64,000 bases of DNA from Deltaproteobacteria bacterium (GTDB taxonomy: Bacteria; Desulfobacterota; Binatia; UBA9968; JAJDTQ01). The stretch covers positions 1 through 64,000 of the forward strand of contig JAPPNE010000140.1 in assembly GCA_028818775.1 (NCBI GenBank). Reading direction: 5' to 3'. Under the pieces are notes generated by a model. The model was not told the DNA's origin and did no database searches. It worked only from the letters and a program-made list of their open reading frames with translations. The position numbers and the translations under genes were made by a program. Of the stretch, positions 54,733 through 60,984 are shown piece after piece (position 1 is the stretch's first letter; each line of letters starts with the position of its first letter).

Positions 54733-55086
54733 TCACAGCTTCTCGTCGTCGGGTACGGTGTCGGTCACGAGGTCGCGGATCAGCGGCCGCTTGGGCAAGG
54801 GTTCCACCCGGGCTCCCTCGGGTGCGAGGCGCGCGGTGCACAGGTAGGCGACCTGTCCGTCCACCAATGCCATGCAGGTCTTGCACGCGTTGGCGTTGAC
54901 GCAACCGTAACGGAACGCCAGGCTCGAGTCCACGTGGGCGCGCACCCACACGAGCGCGTCGAGGACGGACATGCCTTCCTCGTAGGGTACACGGTACATG
55001 TCGTACCGTTCGGGGTCTCCGCCGCCGCCGCGCCGCACGCGCAACTCGGTCGTCGTGTGGCTGGTCCGCGCTGTCGTGCCGCTCAT
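54733..55086 (-). CDS. stand-alone 2Fe-2S domain protein (SdhB/FrdB N-terminal type)
   Basis: A 117-residue protein equal to only the N-terminal [2Fe-2S] half of succinate dehydrogenase/fumarate reductase iron-sulfur subunits. Cys62, Cys68, Cys71 and Cys83 (GCVNANACKTC, YLC) form a C-x5-C-x2-C-x11-C group, one residue wider than the usual C-x4-C-x2-C. The C-terminal [4Fe-4S]/[3Fe-4S] domain is absent, so electrons cannot pass to a membrane anchor in the usual way. It sits between sthA and an SdhA-like flavoprotein on the same strand, with a short repeat in the gap, so it likely receives electrons from the flavoprotein. No membrane anchor is present. Confidence 0.8.
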   Translation of the reverse strand: MSGTTARTSHTTTELRVRRGGGGDPERYDMYRVPYEEGMSVLDALVWVRAHVDSSLAFRYGCVNANACKTCMALVDGQVAYLCTARLAPEGARVEPLPKRPLIRDLVTDTVPDDEKL

Positions 55087-55108
55087 TTTGATTTCGCCCT
55101 CGCCACCC

Positions 55109-55136
55109 CTGGATTCCCGCTTCCGCGGGAATGACG
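55109..55136 (-). repeat. short palindromic repeat (28 bases), copy 2
   Basis: The reverse orientation of the 11052-11079 element (27 of 28 bases alike), with the palindrome TTCCCGCTTCCGCGGGAA. It lies in the 81-base gap between the flavoprotein and 2Fe-2S genes. Confidence 0.8.
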
Positions 55137-55167
55137 GTCCACGGCGTCGGGTGTCTTGCTCCCCATC

Positions 55168-56823
55168 CTACCAGCGCGCCGCCACTTCTTCGGCCTTCAT
55201 TTCGATCACTTGGTTCCGCACGAGTCCCGGGTCGCTCTCCGGGAAGTCCAGGCGCTGGTGGGCGCCGCGGCTCTCGGTGCGGCCCAAGGCGGCCCGGGTT
55301 ACCGCCTCGGCGGTGGCGAGCATGGCGTACAGCTCCAGCCGGTCCTGCAGGTCGAGGTTGTAGCCGCCGCCGGCGTGCACCGTGACGGGAGTCTCCCGGA
55401 TTTCGCGGATGCCGTCGAGCGCGCGCCGGAGTCGGTCGCCGGTCCGGAAGGGTCCGACGTCCTCCCACATGAGGTCCTGCAGCCGGCGTTGCAGGACATT
55501 GGCCGGGACGCCGTCGTCCGAAAACGTCTCCGCGGCACACCGCAGACGCGCCACCGCGTCCTCGGCCGCCGCATCGTTCCAACCCGAGGAGGTGCCGGCC
55601 GCGGCGCCGGCCGCGCGCCCCGCGCATTCGCCGAAAACCAGCGCCTCGGTGATGGCGTTGCCGGACAGGCGGTTGGCGCCGTTGGCGCCGCCCACGGCCT
55701 CACCGGCGGCATAGAGGCCCGGCACGCGGGTCTCCATGCGCTGGTCCACGCGGATCCCGCCCATGTGGTAGTGCGCCGTCGGCGCCACCTCCACCGGCGT
55801 CTTCGTGAGGTCGATGCCGTTCGTCGCCAGCCGGTCGATGACCGGGCCGAAGGCGTCCCGCAGGGCCGCGTCGGGAACGTGCCGGAAGTCCAGGTAGACG
55901 CCGCCGTGGGGCGAGCCCCGGCCCGCCTCCACCTCCTTGAGGATGGCGTAGGAGGCCTGGTCGCGCACCGTGGTGTACTTGCCGCTGTCCTGGCCGCCGT
56001 AGCGGTGCATGAACTCCTCGAAGTCCCCGTTCAGCAGCCTGCCGCCAAGCTTGTAGCGGAAGGGGTCCCACATGATGGGGTCCATGCCCACGAGCCGGGG
56101 CGCCAGGTGGGCGATGGGGAAGAACTGCACGAACTCCATGTCGATGAGGTCGGCACCGGCCCGCAACGCGAGGGCGTAGGCCTCGCCGCCCATGTTGGTG
56201 GAAGCGCTGTTGCGCCGGAAGATCTTGGTGAGCCCGCCCGCCGCCAGGACGATCGCCTCGGCCGCAAAGGTGACGATGTCGCCGGAGACCACGTCCAGGC
56301 CCACCGCTCCCACCGCGCGGCCGTCGGCTACCACCACGTCCGTGACCGTCACGTTGCTGACCCGGCGCACGCCGCTCATGGTGCTCACCTGGCGCCGCAG
56401 CGTCCCCGCCACTCCCGGCCCGGTGTTGAGGAAATCCACGTAGCAGCAGCGCGCGCGGCCGTGGCCGGGCGCCTGGACCTGGCGGATGCGCCCGCCCGCG
56501 GCGCGCGCCCAGTGGGCGCCCCAGCGGTCCATCTCGAAGATCCGGGCGGGGCCGTTCTCGCACAGGAGGCGCGCGAGCTTCTCGTCGCACAGTTCGCGGC
56601 CCGCGGCGAGCGTGTCGTCGAGGTGGTCGGCCCAGTGGTCGCGCTCTTCGTGCCCGATGGCGGCGGCCACGGTCATCTGCGCCATGATGGTGGCGCCGCC
56701 GCGTCCCACGAGCGACTTGTCCAGCAGCAGCACGGAGGCATCCTGTCTGGCCGCGGCGATGGCCGCGTACATGCCCGCGCCGCCCGCTCCCACCACCAGG
56801 ACGTCTGCCGACAAATGAGTCAC
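55168..56823 (-). CDS. FAD-dependent SdhA/FrdA/AprA-like flavoprotein
   Basis: A 551-residue flavoprotein. LVVGAGGAGMYAAIAAARQD is the FAD fold, SLVGRGGATIMAQMTVA resembles the covalent-FAD His region but lacks the usual His-Ser-x-x-Ala. APTAHYHMGGI and NRLSGNAITEALVFGECAG are the conserved substrate and FAD segments of succinate dehydrogenase/fumarate reductase flavoproteins. The GTG at 56823 begins VTHLSADVLVV; the longer frame is not used. With the small 2Fe-2S partner it may form a soluble fumarate-reductase-like or 2-enoate reductase unit. Substrate is unknown. Confidence 0.87.
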   Translation of the reverse strand: MTHLSADVLVVGAGGAGMYAAIAAARQDASVLLLDKSLVGRGGATIMAQMTVAAAIGHEERDHWADHLDDTLAAGRELCDEKLARLLCENGPARIFEMDRWGAHWARAAGGRIRQVQAPGHGRARCCYVDFLNTGPGVAGTLRRQVSTMSGVRRVSNVTVTDVVVADGRAVGAVGLDVVSGDIVTFAAEAIVLAAGGLTKIFRRNSASTNMGGEAYALALRAGADLIDMEFVQFFPIAHLAPRLVGMDPIMWDPFRYKLGGRLLNGDFEEFMHRYGGQDSGKYTTVRDQASYAILKEVEAGRGSPHGGVYLDFRHVPDAALRDAFGPVIDRLATNGIDLTKTPVEVAPTAHYHMGGIRVDQRMETRVPGLYAAGEAVGGANGANRLSGNAITEALVFGECAGRAAGAAAGTSSGWNDAAAEDAVARLRCAAETFSDDGVPANVLQRRLQDLMWEDVGPFRTGDRLRRALDGIREIRETPVTVHAGGGYNLDLQDRLELYAMLATAEAVTRAALGRTESRGAHQRLDFPESDPGLVRNQVIEMKAEEVAARW

Positions 56824-56995
56824 GCGGACGAGTCTAGTCAAAAGCGGGAAGACCGTCCAGCCGGAACGCACGGGCGTCTCGGGAAGCGTGGCCGTGATGG
56901 TTGCAGGTGGGCCTTTCCTTGACGCGATGCGGACTTTCGGTCTAACTAGGGGAGTCGGACAAGCATATTCCACACTTGGCAAAAGGGGGAGAACC

Positions 56996-58669
56996 ATGGC
57001 GCATGATCTGGTCGTAAAGAACGGGCTGGTTGTCGACGGTACCGGAAGCCCCGGCTTCGAGGCGGACGTGGCGATCGCTGGAGGAACCATCGCGGACATC
57101 GGCAAGAACGTCGGGCCGGGCACGACCGAGATCGACGCCCGCGGCCAGGTGGTGGCGCCGGGATTCATCGACTCCCATACCCACATGGACCTCTTCATCG
57201 TGCAGTATCCCCACGGCAATCCCGTGGTCAACTACGGTGTCACCTCCATCGTTATCGGCGACTGCGGCGCCTCCATCGCGCCGGTGCCGCCCGTGGGCGA
57301 GCCGCGTGACGTGCTGATCAAGTACCTGCGGCGTGTGCTCGACGACTACGTCAACGACGACGACTGGAAGTGGACGACCTTCCCCGAGTACCTGGACTAC
57401 CTGGAGGGCCGGGTGGGGGTGAACGTGGCCGCCCTGGTGCCCCACTCCCCGGTGCGGCTGGTGGTCATGGGCGAGGCGGCCTACCAGCGCGAAGCCACGC
57501 CCGAGGAGCTGGAGGCCATGAAGCAGATGGTGCGCGAAGGGATGGAGGCCGGCGGCATCGGCTTTTCGTCCAGCCCGCGCGGCGGCCCGGCCATCCACGC
57601 CGGCACACCGAGCACCCTGGCTACCCAGGAGGAGATGGCGGCCCTTGCCAACGTCGCCGGCGAGTACGGCGGCTGCTTCCAGTTCAACGGGTTCGGCAAC
57701 CTGCTGAAGCCCGAGAGCGGCTTCCCCGAACTGGTGGAGAAGATCAACGTGCCGATGATCGGCAACGAGTTCCGCGTGCGGCCGGGCGAGAAGGCAGACG
57801 GGGAACGCGCCATCGAGTACATGAAGGAGGCGCGGGAACGGGGCAAGGACATCTACGGCGTGGTGATTCCGTATTCGCATATCCGGCGGTTCGACGTGGA
57901 CGACTGCTTCATCTTCGACGGCCTGCCCCTGTGGGAAGAGATCAAGCAGGACCGCGGCGAGCTGGCGCGCAAGCTTCAGGATCCCGACGTGCGCCGCAGG
58001 CTGGACGAGCAGCGGCGCGAGAACGCTGGCGAGCCCGCCTACATCGAGTGGCTCGGATGGCAAGGCGTGTACTTCGACGTGATGCAGCGCGAGGACCTCA
58101 GGTCGCGCGAGGGACAGAACGTCGCGGAGATCGCCGCGGCCAGCGGCAAATCCGAGTCGGACGCCTTCTTCGATACCTGGCTCGAGGACGGGCTGGCGTC
58201 GAAGCTCTACTACCAGGGTTTCGCCAACGGCCACATGGGCCTGCTTGCCGACATGATCAAGACCACCGAGGGGCTCATCGGCACCGACGCGGGCGCGCAC
58301 CTGGACCGTTTCTTCTGGCACGGCGCCCCCACACGGGTGCTCGGCCACTGGCGCCGCGACAAGGGCCTCTTCAACCTGGAGGAGGCGGTGCACAAGGTGA
58401 CCGGCCATCCCGCGGCCAAGCTGCGAATGAACCGGGGCATCCTCAAGACCGGCCTGCCGGCCGACGTCACCGTGTTCGACCCGGACAAGGTCGACGACCT
58501 CGCCAGCAAGCGCATGCCGAAGAAGCTCGACGAGAACGAGATCTTCCGCCATCCGCCGGGTATCGGCGCGGTGGTGGTCAACGGCGAGGTCGTGCTGGAG
58601 GACGGCGAGTGCAAGGACGTCTTCCCCGGCCAGGTGCGGCGCCAGCAGCTCTTCGTCCCCGGCCAGTAG
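56996..58669 (+). CDS. D-aminoacylase-like amidohydrolase (amidohydrolase 3 family)
   Basis: A 557-residue metal-dependent hydrolase. The N-terminal beta domain ([20 protein letters not shown]) precedes FIDSHTHMDL (HxH), VIGDCGASIAP (a D-aminoacylase hallmark), VIPYSHIRRF, GTDAGAHLDRFFWHG and LPADVTVFDPDKVDD. N-acyl-D-amino-acid deacylases are the closest family; D-hydantoin or dipeptide substrates are possible. An AAGGGGGAG site precedes the ATG at 56996; the longer frame from 56888 is not used. It is divergent from the flavoprotein gene and is followed 23 bases later by the diiron protein. Confidence 0.9.
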   Translation: MAHDLVVKNGLVVDGTGSPGFEADVAIAGGTIADIGKNVGPGTTEIDARGQVVAPGFIDSHTHMDLFIVQYPHGNPVVNYGVTSIVIGDCGASIAPVPPVGEPRDVLIKYLRRVLDDYVNDDDWKWTTFPEYLDYLEGRVGVNVAALVPHSPVRLVVMGEAAYQREATPEELEAMKQMVREGMEAGGIGFSSSPRGGPAIHAGTPSTLATQEEMAALANVAGEYGGCFQFNGFGNLLKPESGFPELVEKINVPMIGNEFRVRPGEKADGERAIEYMKEARERGKDIYGVVIPYSHIRRFDVDDCFIFDGLPLWEEIKQDRGELARKLQDPDVRRRLDEQRRENAGEPAYIEWLGWQGVYFDVMQREDLRSREGQNVAEIAAASGKSESDAFFDTWLEDGLASKLYYQGFANGHMGLLADMIKTTEGLIGTDAGAHLDRFFWHGAPTRVLGHWRRDKGLFNLEEAVHKVTGHPAAKLRMNRGILKTGLPADVTVFDPDKVDDLASKRMPKKLDENEIFRHPPGIGAVVVNGEVVLEDGECKDVFPGQVRRQQLFVPGQ

Positions 58670-58692: not shown

Positions 58693-59439
58693 ATGGAAGT
58701 GCTCGCGCCGGAAGCGCTGATCGACGACCTCCGTGGTGTCCTGCGGGGCCGGTATCCGGTGCATCCGGTCCGGCGACTGCTCCTGGGTGGAGATCTCACC
58801 CGGGAGCAGTTGCAGGGTTGGGCCAAGAACCAGTTTCACGAGTTCCGCAACATCCATCGGTTCTTCGGCATCCGCTACCAGAAGTGCCCCATCCAGGCGC
58901 TGCGGCGCATGCTGCTGGAGAACATGGTGGAGGAGGAGGGTGAGGATCTGTTCGGCGGCGAGTACCCCAGCCACGCGGAGTTGTGGACCCGTTTCGGCGA
59001 GGGTCTGGGCATTCCGCGCGAAGAGATGCAGGGCTACGAACCCCTGCCGGGAATCAAGGCGGCCCTGGAGATGTACGTGCAACTGGTGCAGCAAAGCCAC
59101 TGGGCCGTGGCCATCGGCACCGGACTGGTCTTCGAAGGGGAAGGTCCCAAGCGCATGGGCGAAGAGCGCCAGGCACTTGAAACGAACTACCCCTGGATTC
59201 CCTCGGAGGCTCTGGCGTTCTTCCGGGCACACGAGTACCATGACGAAGGACACGGAAACTTCATCGTGGAAGTGATCAAGGAACACATCATGGACGCGGG
59301 GCTTCAGGAGGAGATGCGCGCGGCCGTGAGAACCCGGGTGGACATCATGTGGCTGCAGAACGAGTCCATCTATCAGGCTTTCGTGCGCCCCCAACTCAGC
59401 CCCGAAGCCGCCGGCCGGCTGGAGGCCGCGGCCAACTGA
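58693..59439 (+). CDS. heme-oxygenase-like diiron (HDO/CADD/PqqC-fold) protein
   Basis: A 248-residue helical protein of the TENA/PqqC/HDO fold. Candidate metal ligands are a Glu in LLENMVEEEG (76-83), His94 (YPSHAEL), Glu148 (VFEGEG) and the HxxxDxxH triplet His180, Asp184, His187. The last five are all six residues later than the CADD ligands as I recall them (His88, Glu142, His174, Asp178, His181). The Tyr27 and Lys152 used by CADD for pABA synthesis are not evident here. It therefore looks like a true diiron oxygenase/oxidase with a small-molecule substrate. GGGAGGA precedes the ATG. It sits right after the D-aminoacylase-like gene, which may supply its substrate. Confidence 0.82.
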   Translation: MEVLAPEALIDDLRGVLRGRYPVHPVRRLLLGGDLTREQLQGWAKNQFHEFRNIHRFFGIRYQKCPIQALRRMLLENMVEEEGEDLFGGEYPSHAELWTRFGEGLGIPREEMQGYEPLPGIKAALEMYVQLVQQSHWAVAIGTGLVFEGEGPKRMGEERQALETNYPWIPSEALAFFRAHEYHDEGHGNFIVEVIKEHIMDAGLQEEMRAAVRTRVDIMWLQNESIYQAFVRPQLSPEAAGRLEAAAN

Positions 59440-59475: not shown

Positions 59476-60339
59476 ATGAGTTCGCTGTTCGGCAAGACGA
59501 TTGCATTCCTGGTACTCGTGGCGGCCACGGTGGCGCTGGGGTACACCGCGTGGGAGATTCGCGACCTGAAGGCGTCTCTCGCCCGGACGGCCCAGGGCAA
59601 CGAATCCAACCTGACCGAGATGATGATCTCGCTCGCCCATGCCGAAGGGCAGCTCGCGCGGGTGCGCGAGACGGTGGAGCTGCTCGGAGCCAGCGGCTTG
59701 TCGGAGAACTCGGACGGCACCGCGTTGGAGGGCAAGCTCACGGCGGCCCTGTCATCTGCGCAGCGGGAGGTGTTGCAGCAGGAATTGAAGAAGTGGACGC
59801 AACAGCTCAGGGAACAGCGGGACAAGAGTCTGGCCGCGGTACGGGAAAGTCTCGAGCAGGAAGTGGGCCGCAGCGTCGCGCAAGGTAACCAGCAGTTGTC
59901 CGCGCTCGTGGAAAGGAACCAGGGGAGCCTGACCGAGCAACTGAAGGACCTGGGAACGAATCTCGCCAAGCCCTCGGGGTCCACCGTGCAGCAGGGCCAG
60001 ACTTTGGCGAATCTGGAAAAGCGTCTGGCGGCGGTGGCGGATACGGTAAGGGAGCAGGGGCAGGCTCTCGCTCAACGCAACGAACGTGACGACAAGCGCT
60101 GGGATGAGCTTTCCCTGGCGTTGGAAGAGAGCATGAAGGCTACCCAGCGGCGTTACGCCGAGGTAGCCGCGCTCCTGAAGGCGCAAAACGACGGCGCAGC
60201 GAAGCCCGACAATGCGACGACAGGGTCGGGGCAGGCAGGGCAGGGGACACAGTCGCCGGCGGGCGACCGTGCGCAGCAGGAGCGGTTGGCGGAATTCTGC
60301 GCCGAAGTGCCTCAATCCGCCCTGTGCCGGAATCGGTAG
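59476..60339 (+). CDS. membrane-anchored coiled-coil protein, function unknown
   Basis: A 287-residue protein with a single N-terminal hydrophobic segment (residues 7-25) acting as an uncleaved anchor. A long charged, Gln/Glu/Arg-rich region (30-235) with heptad-like pattern follows, then a Gly/Thr/Ser/Gln-rich stretch (235-265) and a short Cys-containing end (EFCAEVPQSALCRNR). It resembles no enzyme family I recognise; such tethered coiled coils often act as structural or assembly proteins at the inner membrane. The final pair of Cys may be disulfide-linked in the periplasm. It lies between the diiron and cyclase genes with 36 and 21 base gaps. Confidence 0.72.
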   Translation: MSSLFGKTIAFLVLVAATVALGYTAWEIRDLKASLARTAQGNESNLTEMMISLAHAEGQLARVRETVELLGASGLSENSDGTALEGKLTAALSSAQREVLQQELKKWTQQLREQRDKSLAAVRESLEQEVGRSVAQGNQQLSALVERNQGSLTEQLKDLGTNLAKPSGSTVQQGQTLANLEKRLAAVADTVREQGQALAQRNERDDKRWDELSLALEESMKATQRRYAEVAALLKAQNDGAAKPDNATTGSGQAGQGTQSPAGDRAQQERLAEFCAEVPQSALCRNR

Positions 60340-60360: not shown

Positions 60361-60984
60361 ATGCAGTACTACGACATCTCACTCAAGCTGAGCCCCGCCA
60401 CCGCGCGCTGGGTGACCGGTACGCCGTTCGAGCTGGTGGACCGCAGGCGCATGCAGCGTGGCGACCACAACAACTCGTCGAGCGTGAACATGAGCGTCCA
60501 CAGCGGCACGCACATGGATGCGCCGTTCCACTTCGTTGCCGAGGGCGCGTCCATCGACGAGCTGCCGTTGGAGCTTTTCATCGGGCCGGCCCTGGTGCAC
60601 GAGGTGGACGCGCACCGCTACATCACCGCCGAGCATGTCGCGCCACTCCCGCCGGGCGAGCGCATCCTGTTCAAGACGAGCAACTCGGAACTCCTTCGGC
60701 GCGCCGCGTATGATCCCGACTTCGTGGCCTTCTCGGTGGAGGCGGCGGACGCCCTGGTGGCCAAGGGTTACGGCCTCGTCGGACTCGACTACCTTTCGGT
60801 CGCCCACGCGGACGAGCAGGTGCCGGTGCACCGGGCCTTCCTGGATCACGGGCTCGCCCTGCTGGAGGGCGTCGACCTGACGGACATTCGCCCGGGGATG
60901 TACGAGTTGATCTGCTTCCCTGTCTGCATCGCCGGCGCGGACGGAGCTCCCTGCCGCGCCGTTCTCCGCGACCTCGCGTCTTGA
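60361..60984 (+). CDS. cyclase-family (kynurenine formamidase-like) metal hydrolase
   Basis: A 207-residue member of the cyclase/arylformamidase family. VHSGTHMDAPFHF is the family's metal-binding core (HSGTHMDxPxHF), with MQYYDISLKLSP at the N-terminus and GYGLVGLDYLSV later. It hydrolyses N-formyl or cyclic amide bonds or an ester using Zn or Mn. Kynurenine formamidase (KynB) is the best-known member, but kynurenine genes are not nearby. It is followed after 126 bases by a 2-hydroxyacid dehydrogenase. Confidence 0.88.
   Translation: MQYYDISLKLSPATARWVTGTPFELVDRRRMQRGDHNNSSSVNMSVHSGTHMDAPFHFVAEGASIDELPLELFIGPALVHEVDAHRYITAEHVAPLPPGERILFKTSNSELLRRAAYDPDFVAFSVEAADALVAKGYGLVGLDYLSVAHADEQVPVHRAFLDHGLALLEGVDLTDIRPGMYELICFPVCIAGADGAPCRAVLRDLAS

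Follow-up and report, generated by a model that had tools for sequence, protein, structure and literature searches.

A branch of the HDO superfamily from uncultured Binatia with Arg and Glu at the sites of CADD's sacrificed Tyr and Lys

What does an HDO-fold protein do if it retains all metal ligands of CADD, yet carries an invariant Arg and an invariant Glu at the sites where CADD consumes itself? This question is raised by a gene in a 64,000-nucleotide stretch of DNA from a Deltaproteobacteria bacterium (contig JAPPNE010000140.1), referred to here as the window (Table 1). In CADD, Tyr27 is the sacrificed residue, Lys152 is the amine donor and Tyr43 is essential. A protein with the same metal ligands and different residues at these positions would lend itself to comparing an oxygenase that works catalytically with one that consumes itself in a single turnover. 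The superfamily is known, but the branch is new and uncharacterised. About a dozen of more than 10,000 HDOs have been characterised (PMC13108848), and we found no description of this branch in the open PMC literature.

Table 1. Features of the HDO locus, in window coordinates
Feature	Position	Strand	Basis or remark
Amidohydrolase of D-aminoacylase type (PF07969)	56996..58669	+	next to the HDO gene only in f79 and the window's genus
HDO-fold protein P0001, 248 aa	58693..59439	+	Pfam, predicted structure, orthologue alignment
Arg27, site of CADD sacrificed Tyr27	58771..58773	+	invariant in 21 orthologues
Glu81, predicted metal ligand (CADD E81)	58933..58935	+	
His94, predicted metal ligand (CADD H88)	58972..58974	+	
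Glu148, predicted metal ligand (CADD E142)	59134..59136	+	
Glu158, site of CADD amine donor Lys152	59164..59166	+	invariant in 21 orthologues
H180-x3-D184-x2-H187, predicted metal ligands (CADD H174, D178, H181)	59230..59253	+	
287-aa protein, no Pfam match	59476..60339	+	between HDO and cyclase genes; poorly conserved
PF04199 cyclase / kynurenine-formamidase-like hydrolase	60361..60984	+	TIGR03035 142.8 bits, cut-off 223

Fold, metal ligands and the sites of the consumed residues

The bounds of the HDO reading frame are exact, with an ATG start and, shortly 5' of it, a ribosome-site-like GGGAGGA stretch. The encoded protein matches the Pfam families TENA_THI-4 (78.4 bits, cut-off 22) and Haem_oxygenas_2 (52.5 bits, cut-off 28.9). 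Its scores against the NCBIfam models of PqqC (TIGR02111, 93.6 bits), CADD (TIGR04305, 82.6 bits) and BesC (22.2 bits) stay far below the respective cut-offs of 240, 200 and 500. AlphaFold, supplied with 24 aligned sequences, predicted the seven-helix heme-oxygenase fold (pLDDT 92.2, pTM 0.87). The solved structure closest to this model is PqqC (VIA-align Z 28.3, rmsd 1.8 over 228 residues), followed by CADD (Z 25.8, rmsd 1.9 over 213 residues). FlcD, HrmI, UndA (Z 21.8) and BesC (Z 20.5) rank after these two, at Z 20–23. As a group BesC, UndA, HrmI, FlcD and PolF share the fold at Z scores of about 17–24 and act mostly on amino or fatty acids, but they are only 11–18% identical to the model in the structural alignments.

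Against an oxygenase assignment, proteins of the heme-oxygenase fold need not be oxygenases, and PqqC, which is also the best single-sequence match in the PDB (phmmer E 6e-20), is metal-independent (PMC13108848). The present protein differs from PqqC in having the metal ligands, and a test of eight neighbouring genes revealed no pqq gene.

We next consider these ligands in the profile alignment of the orthologues and five paralogues to CADD (1rcw), which spans the whole ligand region. The common metal-ligand set of HDOs consists of three histidines and three carboxylates. CADD residues E81, H88, E142, H174, D178 and H181, as counted by hand on the alignment to 1rcw, fall on E81, H94, E148, H180, D184 and H187. 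Every one of 21 orthologues carries all six, as does each of the 13 rows in a mixed alignment of HDOs; the last three form the HxxxDxxH motif (H180-EYH-D184-EG-H187). A sequence-only reading of the locus had proposed an HDO fold, metal ligands at a constant six-residue offset from those of CADD, and the absence of the sacrificed Tyr and Lys. Structure prediction and the alignment to CADD confirm the fold, the ligands and the missing pair. The offset needs correction: it applies to five ligands and is zero for E81, because six residues that CADD does not have fall between E81 and H94.

CADD Tyr27, Tyr43 and Lys152 correspond to R27, W43 and E158, each of them invariant in the 21 aligned orthologues. 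In contrast to this R/W/E pattern, two TIGR04305 members that score over the cut-off, found in other families of the same class, show Y/Y/K at the same sites. Since the consumed Tyr and Lys are replaced by Arg27 and Glu158, the protein is not a self-sacrificing p-aminobenzoate (pABA) synthase of the CADD type. The Tyr/Lys pair is also absent from all seven aligned HDO paralogue rows from the window's own genome (G000) and a relative, G207. Across the 13 rows of the mixed alignment, which is loose in this region, sites 27 and 158 tend to be either both charged or polar (R/E, Y/K, D/D) or both mostly hydrophobic, and this paired character is consistent with a contact between them. In SznF-type 3H/4C N-oxygenase HDOs, an auxiliary helix contributes a further Glu as the seventh ligand. 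Glu84 and Glu158, both invariant among the 21 orthologues, may be candidates for such a residue.

Phe147 and Phe176 stand at the sites of CADD Tyr141 and Tyr170. NePabS from N. europaea, a self-sacrificing pABA synthase like CADD that resembles our protein in fold and in the six aligned ligands, likewise has Phe at both metal-side sites and prefers Fe/Fe, and the exchange F148Y/F177Y switches it to Mn/Fe (PMC11965152). Because the same two Tyr residues are replaced by Phe, an Fe/Fe rather than a Mn/Fe center is predicted for the window protein.

Distribution and loss of the gene

A scan of GTDB contigs returned 23 loci of the HDO orthologue, 20 of which are long enough to align with the window copy. 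One of the source titles names a Tectomicrobia, and all others are MAGs of uncultured Binatia, 'Deltaproteobacteria' or the like; the branch is so far confined to one order of uncultured Binatia and a single Tectomicrobia genome. The orthologues form one clade (support 100/99), separate from the rows of CADD and of paralogues from the same genome; branches outside this clade are long, and only the clade and its inner forks are used here. The window's own genome contains nine HDO-like matches at E 0.01. A phylum-wide draw of 198 genomes returned at E 1e-60 the own copy alone, because this draw contains few close relatives. The gene is under strong purifying selection, as four in-frame comparisons within the window's genus gave dN values of 0.014–0.053, dS values of 0.23–0.86 and dN/dS ratios of about 0.05–0.08. 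The Tectomicrobia copy (L022, 10001-12202) groups with the clade of f79 and the window (support 95/88), a placement which suggests that the gene crossed between phyla or that the contig was misbinned.

Among 25 genomes searched from the sister family f80, 15 contain a full copy, two (G225 and G228) a fragment at a contig end, and eight no match at the threshold used. C-terminal relics of 44, 38 and 29 amino acids remain at L031, L030 and L071 (G227), respectively. The first of these is 86% identical to L018 and was assigned to G207 by the matching coordinates of the neighbouring aldolase gene. These relics, together with the genomes without a match, indicate that the HDO gene is accessory and was lost more than once.

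Neighbouring genes and candidate reactions

The explanation we prefer, and consider reasonably probable, is that the protein is a catalytic, non-self-sacrificing dimetal oxygenase or oxidase of the HDO superfamily that acts on a free, amino-acid-like substrate, probably with an Fe/Fe center. In the predicted structure, E81, H94, E148, H180, D184 and H187 would hold two metals at which O2 would be activated. Arg27 and Glu158 may bind or orient a free substrate bearing a carboxylate or an amine; an amino acid or a compound closely derived from one is most likely. Metal binding, O2 use, substrate class and Fe/Fe preference are inferred. Characterised HDOs oxidise mainly amino or fatty acids and use two metals to activate O2 (PMC13108848). 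An amino-acid-like substrate, also anticipated by the sequence-only reading, is favoured because the recurrent neighbours (threonine aldolase, D-aminoacylase-like and formamidase-like proteins) come from families whose substrates are amino acids or N-acyl amino acids. No single partner names this substrate, since the window's genus does not pair the gene with the aldolase and f80 does not pair it with the D-aminoacylase. The partners differ by lineage, which points to a probable role in amino-acid metabolism as an accessory step that can be lost.

The neighbourhood in f80 offers a more specific proposal. In 13 of the 15 full-HDO loci the HDO gene is followed directly, on its own strand, by an orthologous threonine aldolase gene, and in 14 of 15 a divergent ABC ATPase gene lies 5' of it. 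The aldolase is GntG-type, belongs to PF01212, scores over the cut-off of NF041359 and matches an L-allo-threonine aldolase in the PDB (E 9e-105). In guanitoxin synthesis GntG is named as the enzyme of the retro-aldol step (PMC10367076), which provides a chemical parallel for a pathway in which the HDO β-hydroxylates a free amino acid, possibly an aromatic one, and the aldolase then breaks the Cα–Cβ bond to give an aldehyde and glycine. At L018/L042 (L018 10680-11318) and L031 (4399-5418), a different threonine aldolase, 39–43% identical, occupies the slot on the opposite or convergent strand; at L042 it is 43% identical and lies next to the HDO gene on the opposite strand. This different enzyme adjoins the HDO gene or its relic in some f80 genomes. 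The remaining full-HDO locus, L045, is on a short contig without an aldolase.

Several observations weigh against this proposal. Within the window's genus the two genes are unlinked, the nearest threonine aldolase (43% identical) being encoded on another contig. Four f80 genomes (G212, G216, G222 and G227) contain the aldolase without the HDO gene, and at L071 and L072 the ABC and aldolase genes do not flank a full HDO gene. Furthermore, no HDO is described as a β-hydroxylase in the consulted sections of PMC13108848. We therefore regard coupled hydroxylation and aldol cleavage as unlikely. The aldolase neighbour gives a concrete substrate class to consider first. If the proposal were true, the side-chain cleavage of CADD would in effect be shared between two catalytic enzymes. 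The boldest version, in which CADD-like oxidative side-chain removal has in these Binatia become a two-enzyme pathway, with the Arg/Glu pair binding the substrate of a β-hydroxylating HDO and the aldolase releasing aldehyde and glycine, appears quite improbable.

A different partner is found in the window itself, where the HDO reading frame begins 23 bp past the stop codon of the amidohydrolase gene on the same strand. The sequence-only reading had called this neighbour a D-aminoacylase and had proposed that the HDO oxidises its product. The amidohydrolase matches PF07969 (Amidohydro_3, 92.6 bits) and its best PDB match is indeed the solved D-aminoacylase 1v4y (E 4.5e-47); since no NCBIfam cut-off is reached among the 25 families shown, the assignment extends to the family level only. 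The gene directly precedes the HDO gene in nine of nine genomes of the window's genus and in the one genome of the neighbouring family f79. A formamidase-like gene follows two genes 3' of the HDO gene in eight of the nine, the ninth contig ending too early. One may thus imagine that the HDO oxidises an amino acid freed by the hydrolase, or that the hydrolase takes the HDO product, with the formamidase-like enzyme as third step. In favour of such coupling, an HDO paralogue on contig C84 of the same genome lies in the similar order Amidohydro_2 – HDO – PF04199 cyclase – DHDPS-like (L066, 6786-10378), and of only five PF04199 genes in this genome two are within two genes of an HDO gene.

Descent alone may, however, account for an arrangement common to nine members of a single genus. 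An amidohydrolase orthologue (59–71% identical) occurs in 13 of the 15 full-HDO f80 genomes, and in all 13 it is on a different contig from the HDO gene. Searching nine f80 amidohydrolase stretches for a close HDO gene returned none, apart from one weak match (E 2e-7) in L079. Together these findings speak against the D-aminoacylase as a general conserved partner, a reading that was rejected. The pairing noted in the sequence-only reading is real and conserved within the genus and f79, but does not extend to f80, and its suggestion that the HDO acts on the hydrolase product finds no support. Coupling to the hydrolase is accordingly unlikely. The Tectomicrobia copy is accompanied by neither a D-aminoacylase-like nor a threonine aldolase partner.

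That copy does have a gene for 3-hydroxyanthranilate 3,4-dioxygenase, over its cut-off, about 0.9 kb 3' of the HDO gene. Combined with the KynB-like gene two genes 3' of the HDO in the window, and with a heme tryptophan dioxygenase in only one of 18 genomes, this arrangement recalls a kynurenine-type role, in which the HDO would replace heme tryptophan 2,3-dioxygenase and pass an N-formyl product to the KynB-like enzyme. Against this idea, the KynB match is under its cut-off (TIGR03035), the HDO gene of f80 has no KynB-like gene close by, and the remaining pathway is absent, because kynureninase scores over the cut-off in none of the 18 genomes. With the two key models at one and zero of 18, the kynurenine pathway was rejected, and we consider this role very improbable. 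The sole tryptophan 2,3-dioxygenase (G204:C181:6231-7007) is a split match that lacks model positions 178-266. In the Tectomicrobia genome, neither tryptophan dioxygenase nor kynureninase was found despite the 3-hydroxyanthranilate dioxygenase.

Finally, production of pABA for the host is scarcely credible. In its favour, among 35 genomes of the order (the window's own and 34 relatives) neither PabB nor CADD exceeds its cut-off in any while dihydropteroate synthase (FolP) exceeds its own in 32, and the two chorismate-binding homologues of the own genome are TrpE and isochorismate synthase. Against it, the Tyr and Lys are replaced and G207, listed as 100% complete, has FolP, no PabB and, of the HDO gene, nothing beyond the C-terminal relic, so that the order cannot depend on the HDO gene for pABA; CADD-type synthesis by this gene was rejected. 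The PabC model TIGR03461 was little informative, exceeding its cut-off in none of 44 genomes, PabB-bearing ones included.

Two further observations concern the surrounding genes. A relative of the C84 paralogue in G207 (L074) also adjoins a PF04199 cyclase gene, and the probability that two of five PF04199 genes in the window's genome lie near an HDO gene by chance is about 1 in 1000 by a rough, post hoc hand estimate. Upstream in the window (54733-56916, minus strand), a gene for a fumarate-reductase-like flavoprotein lies beside one for a 117-aa 2Fe-2S protein whose match to the usual iron–sulfur subunit is confined to the first half of that subunit; both are divergent from the amidohydrolase and HDO genes.
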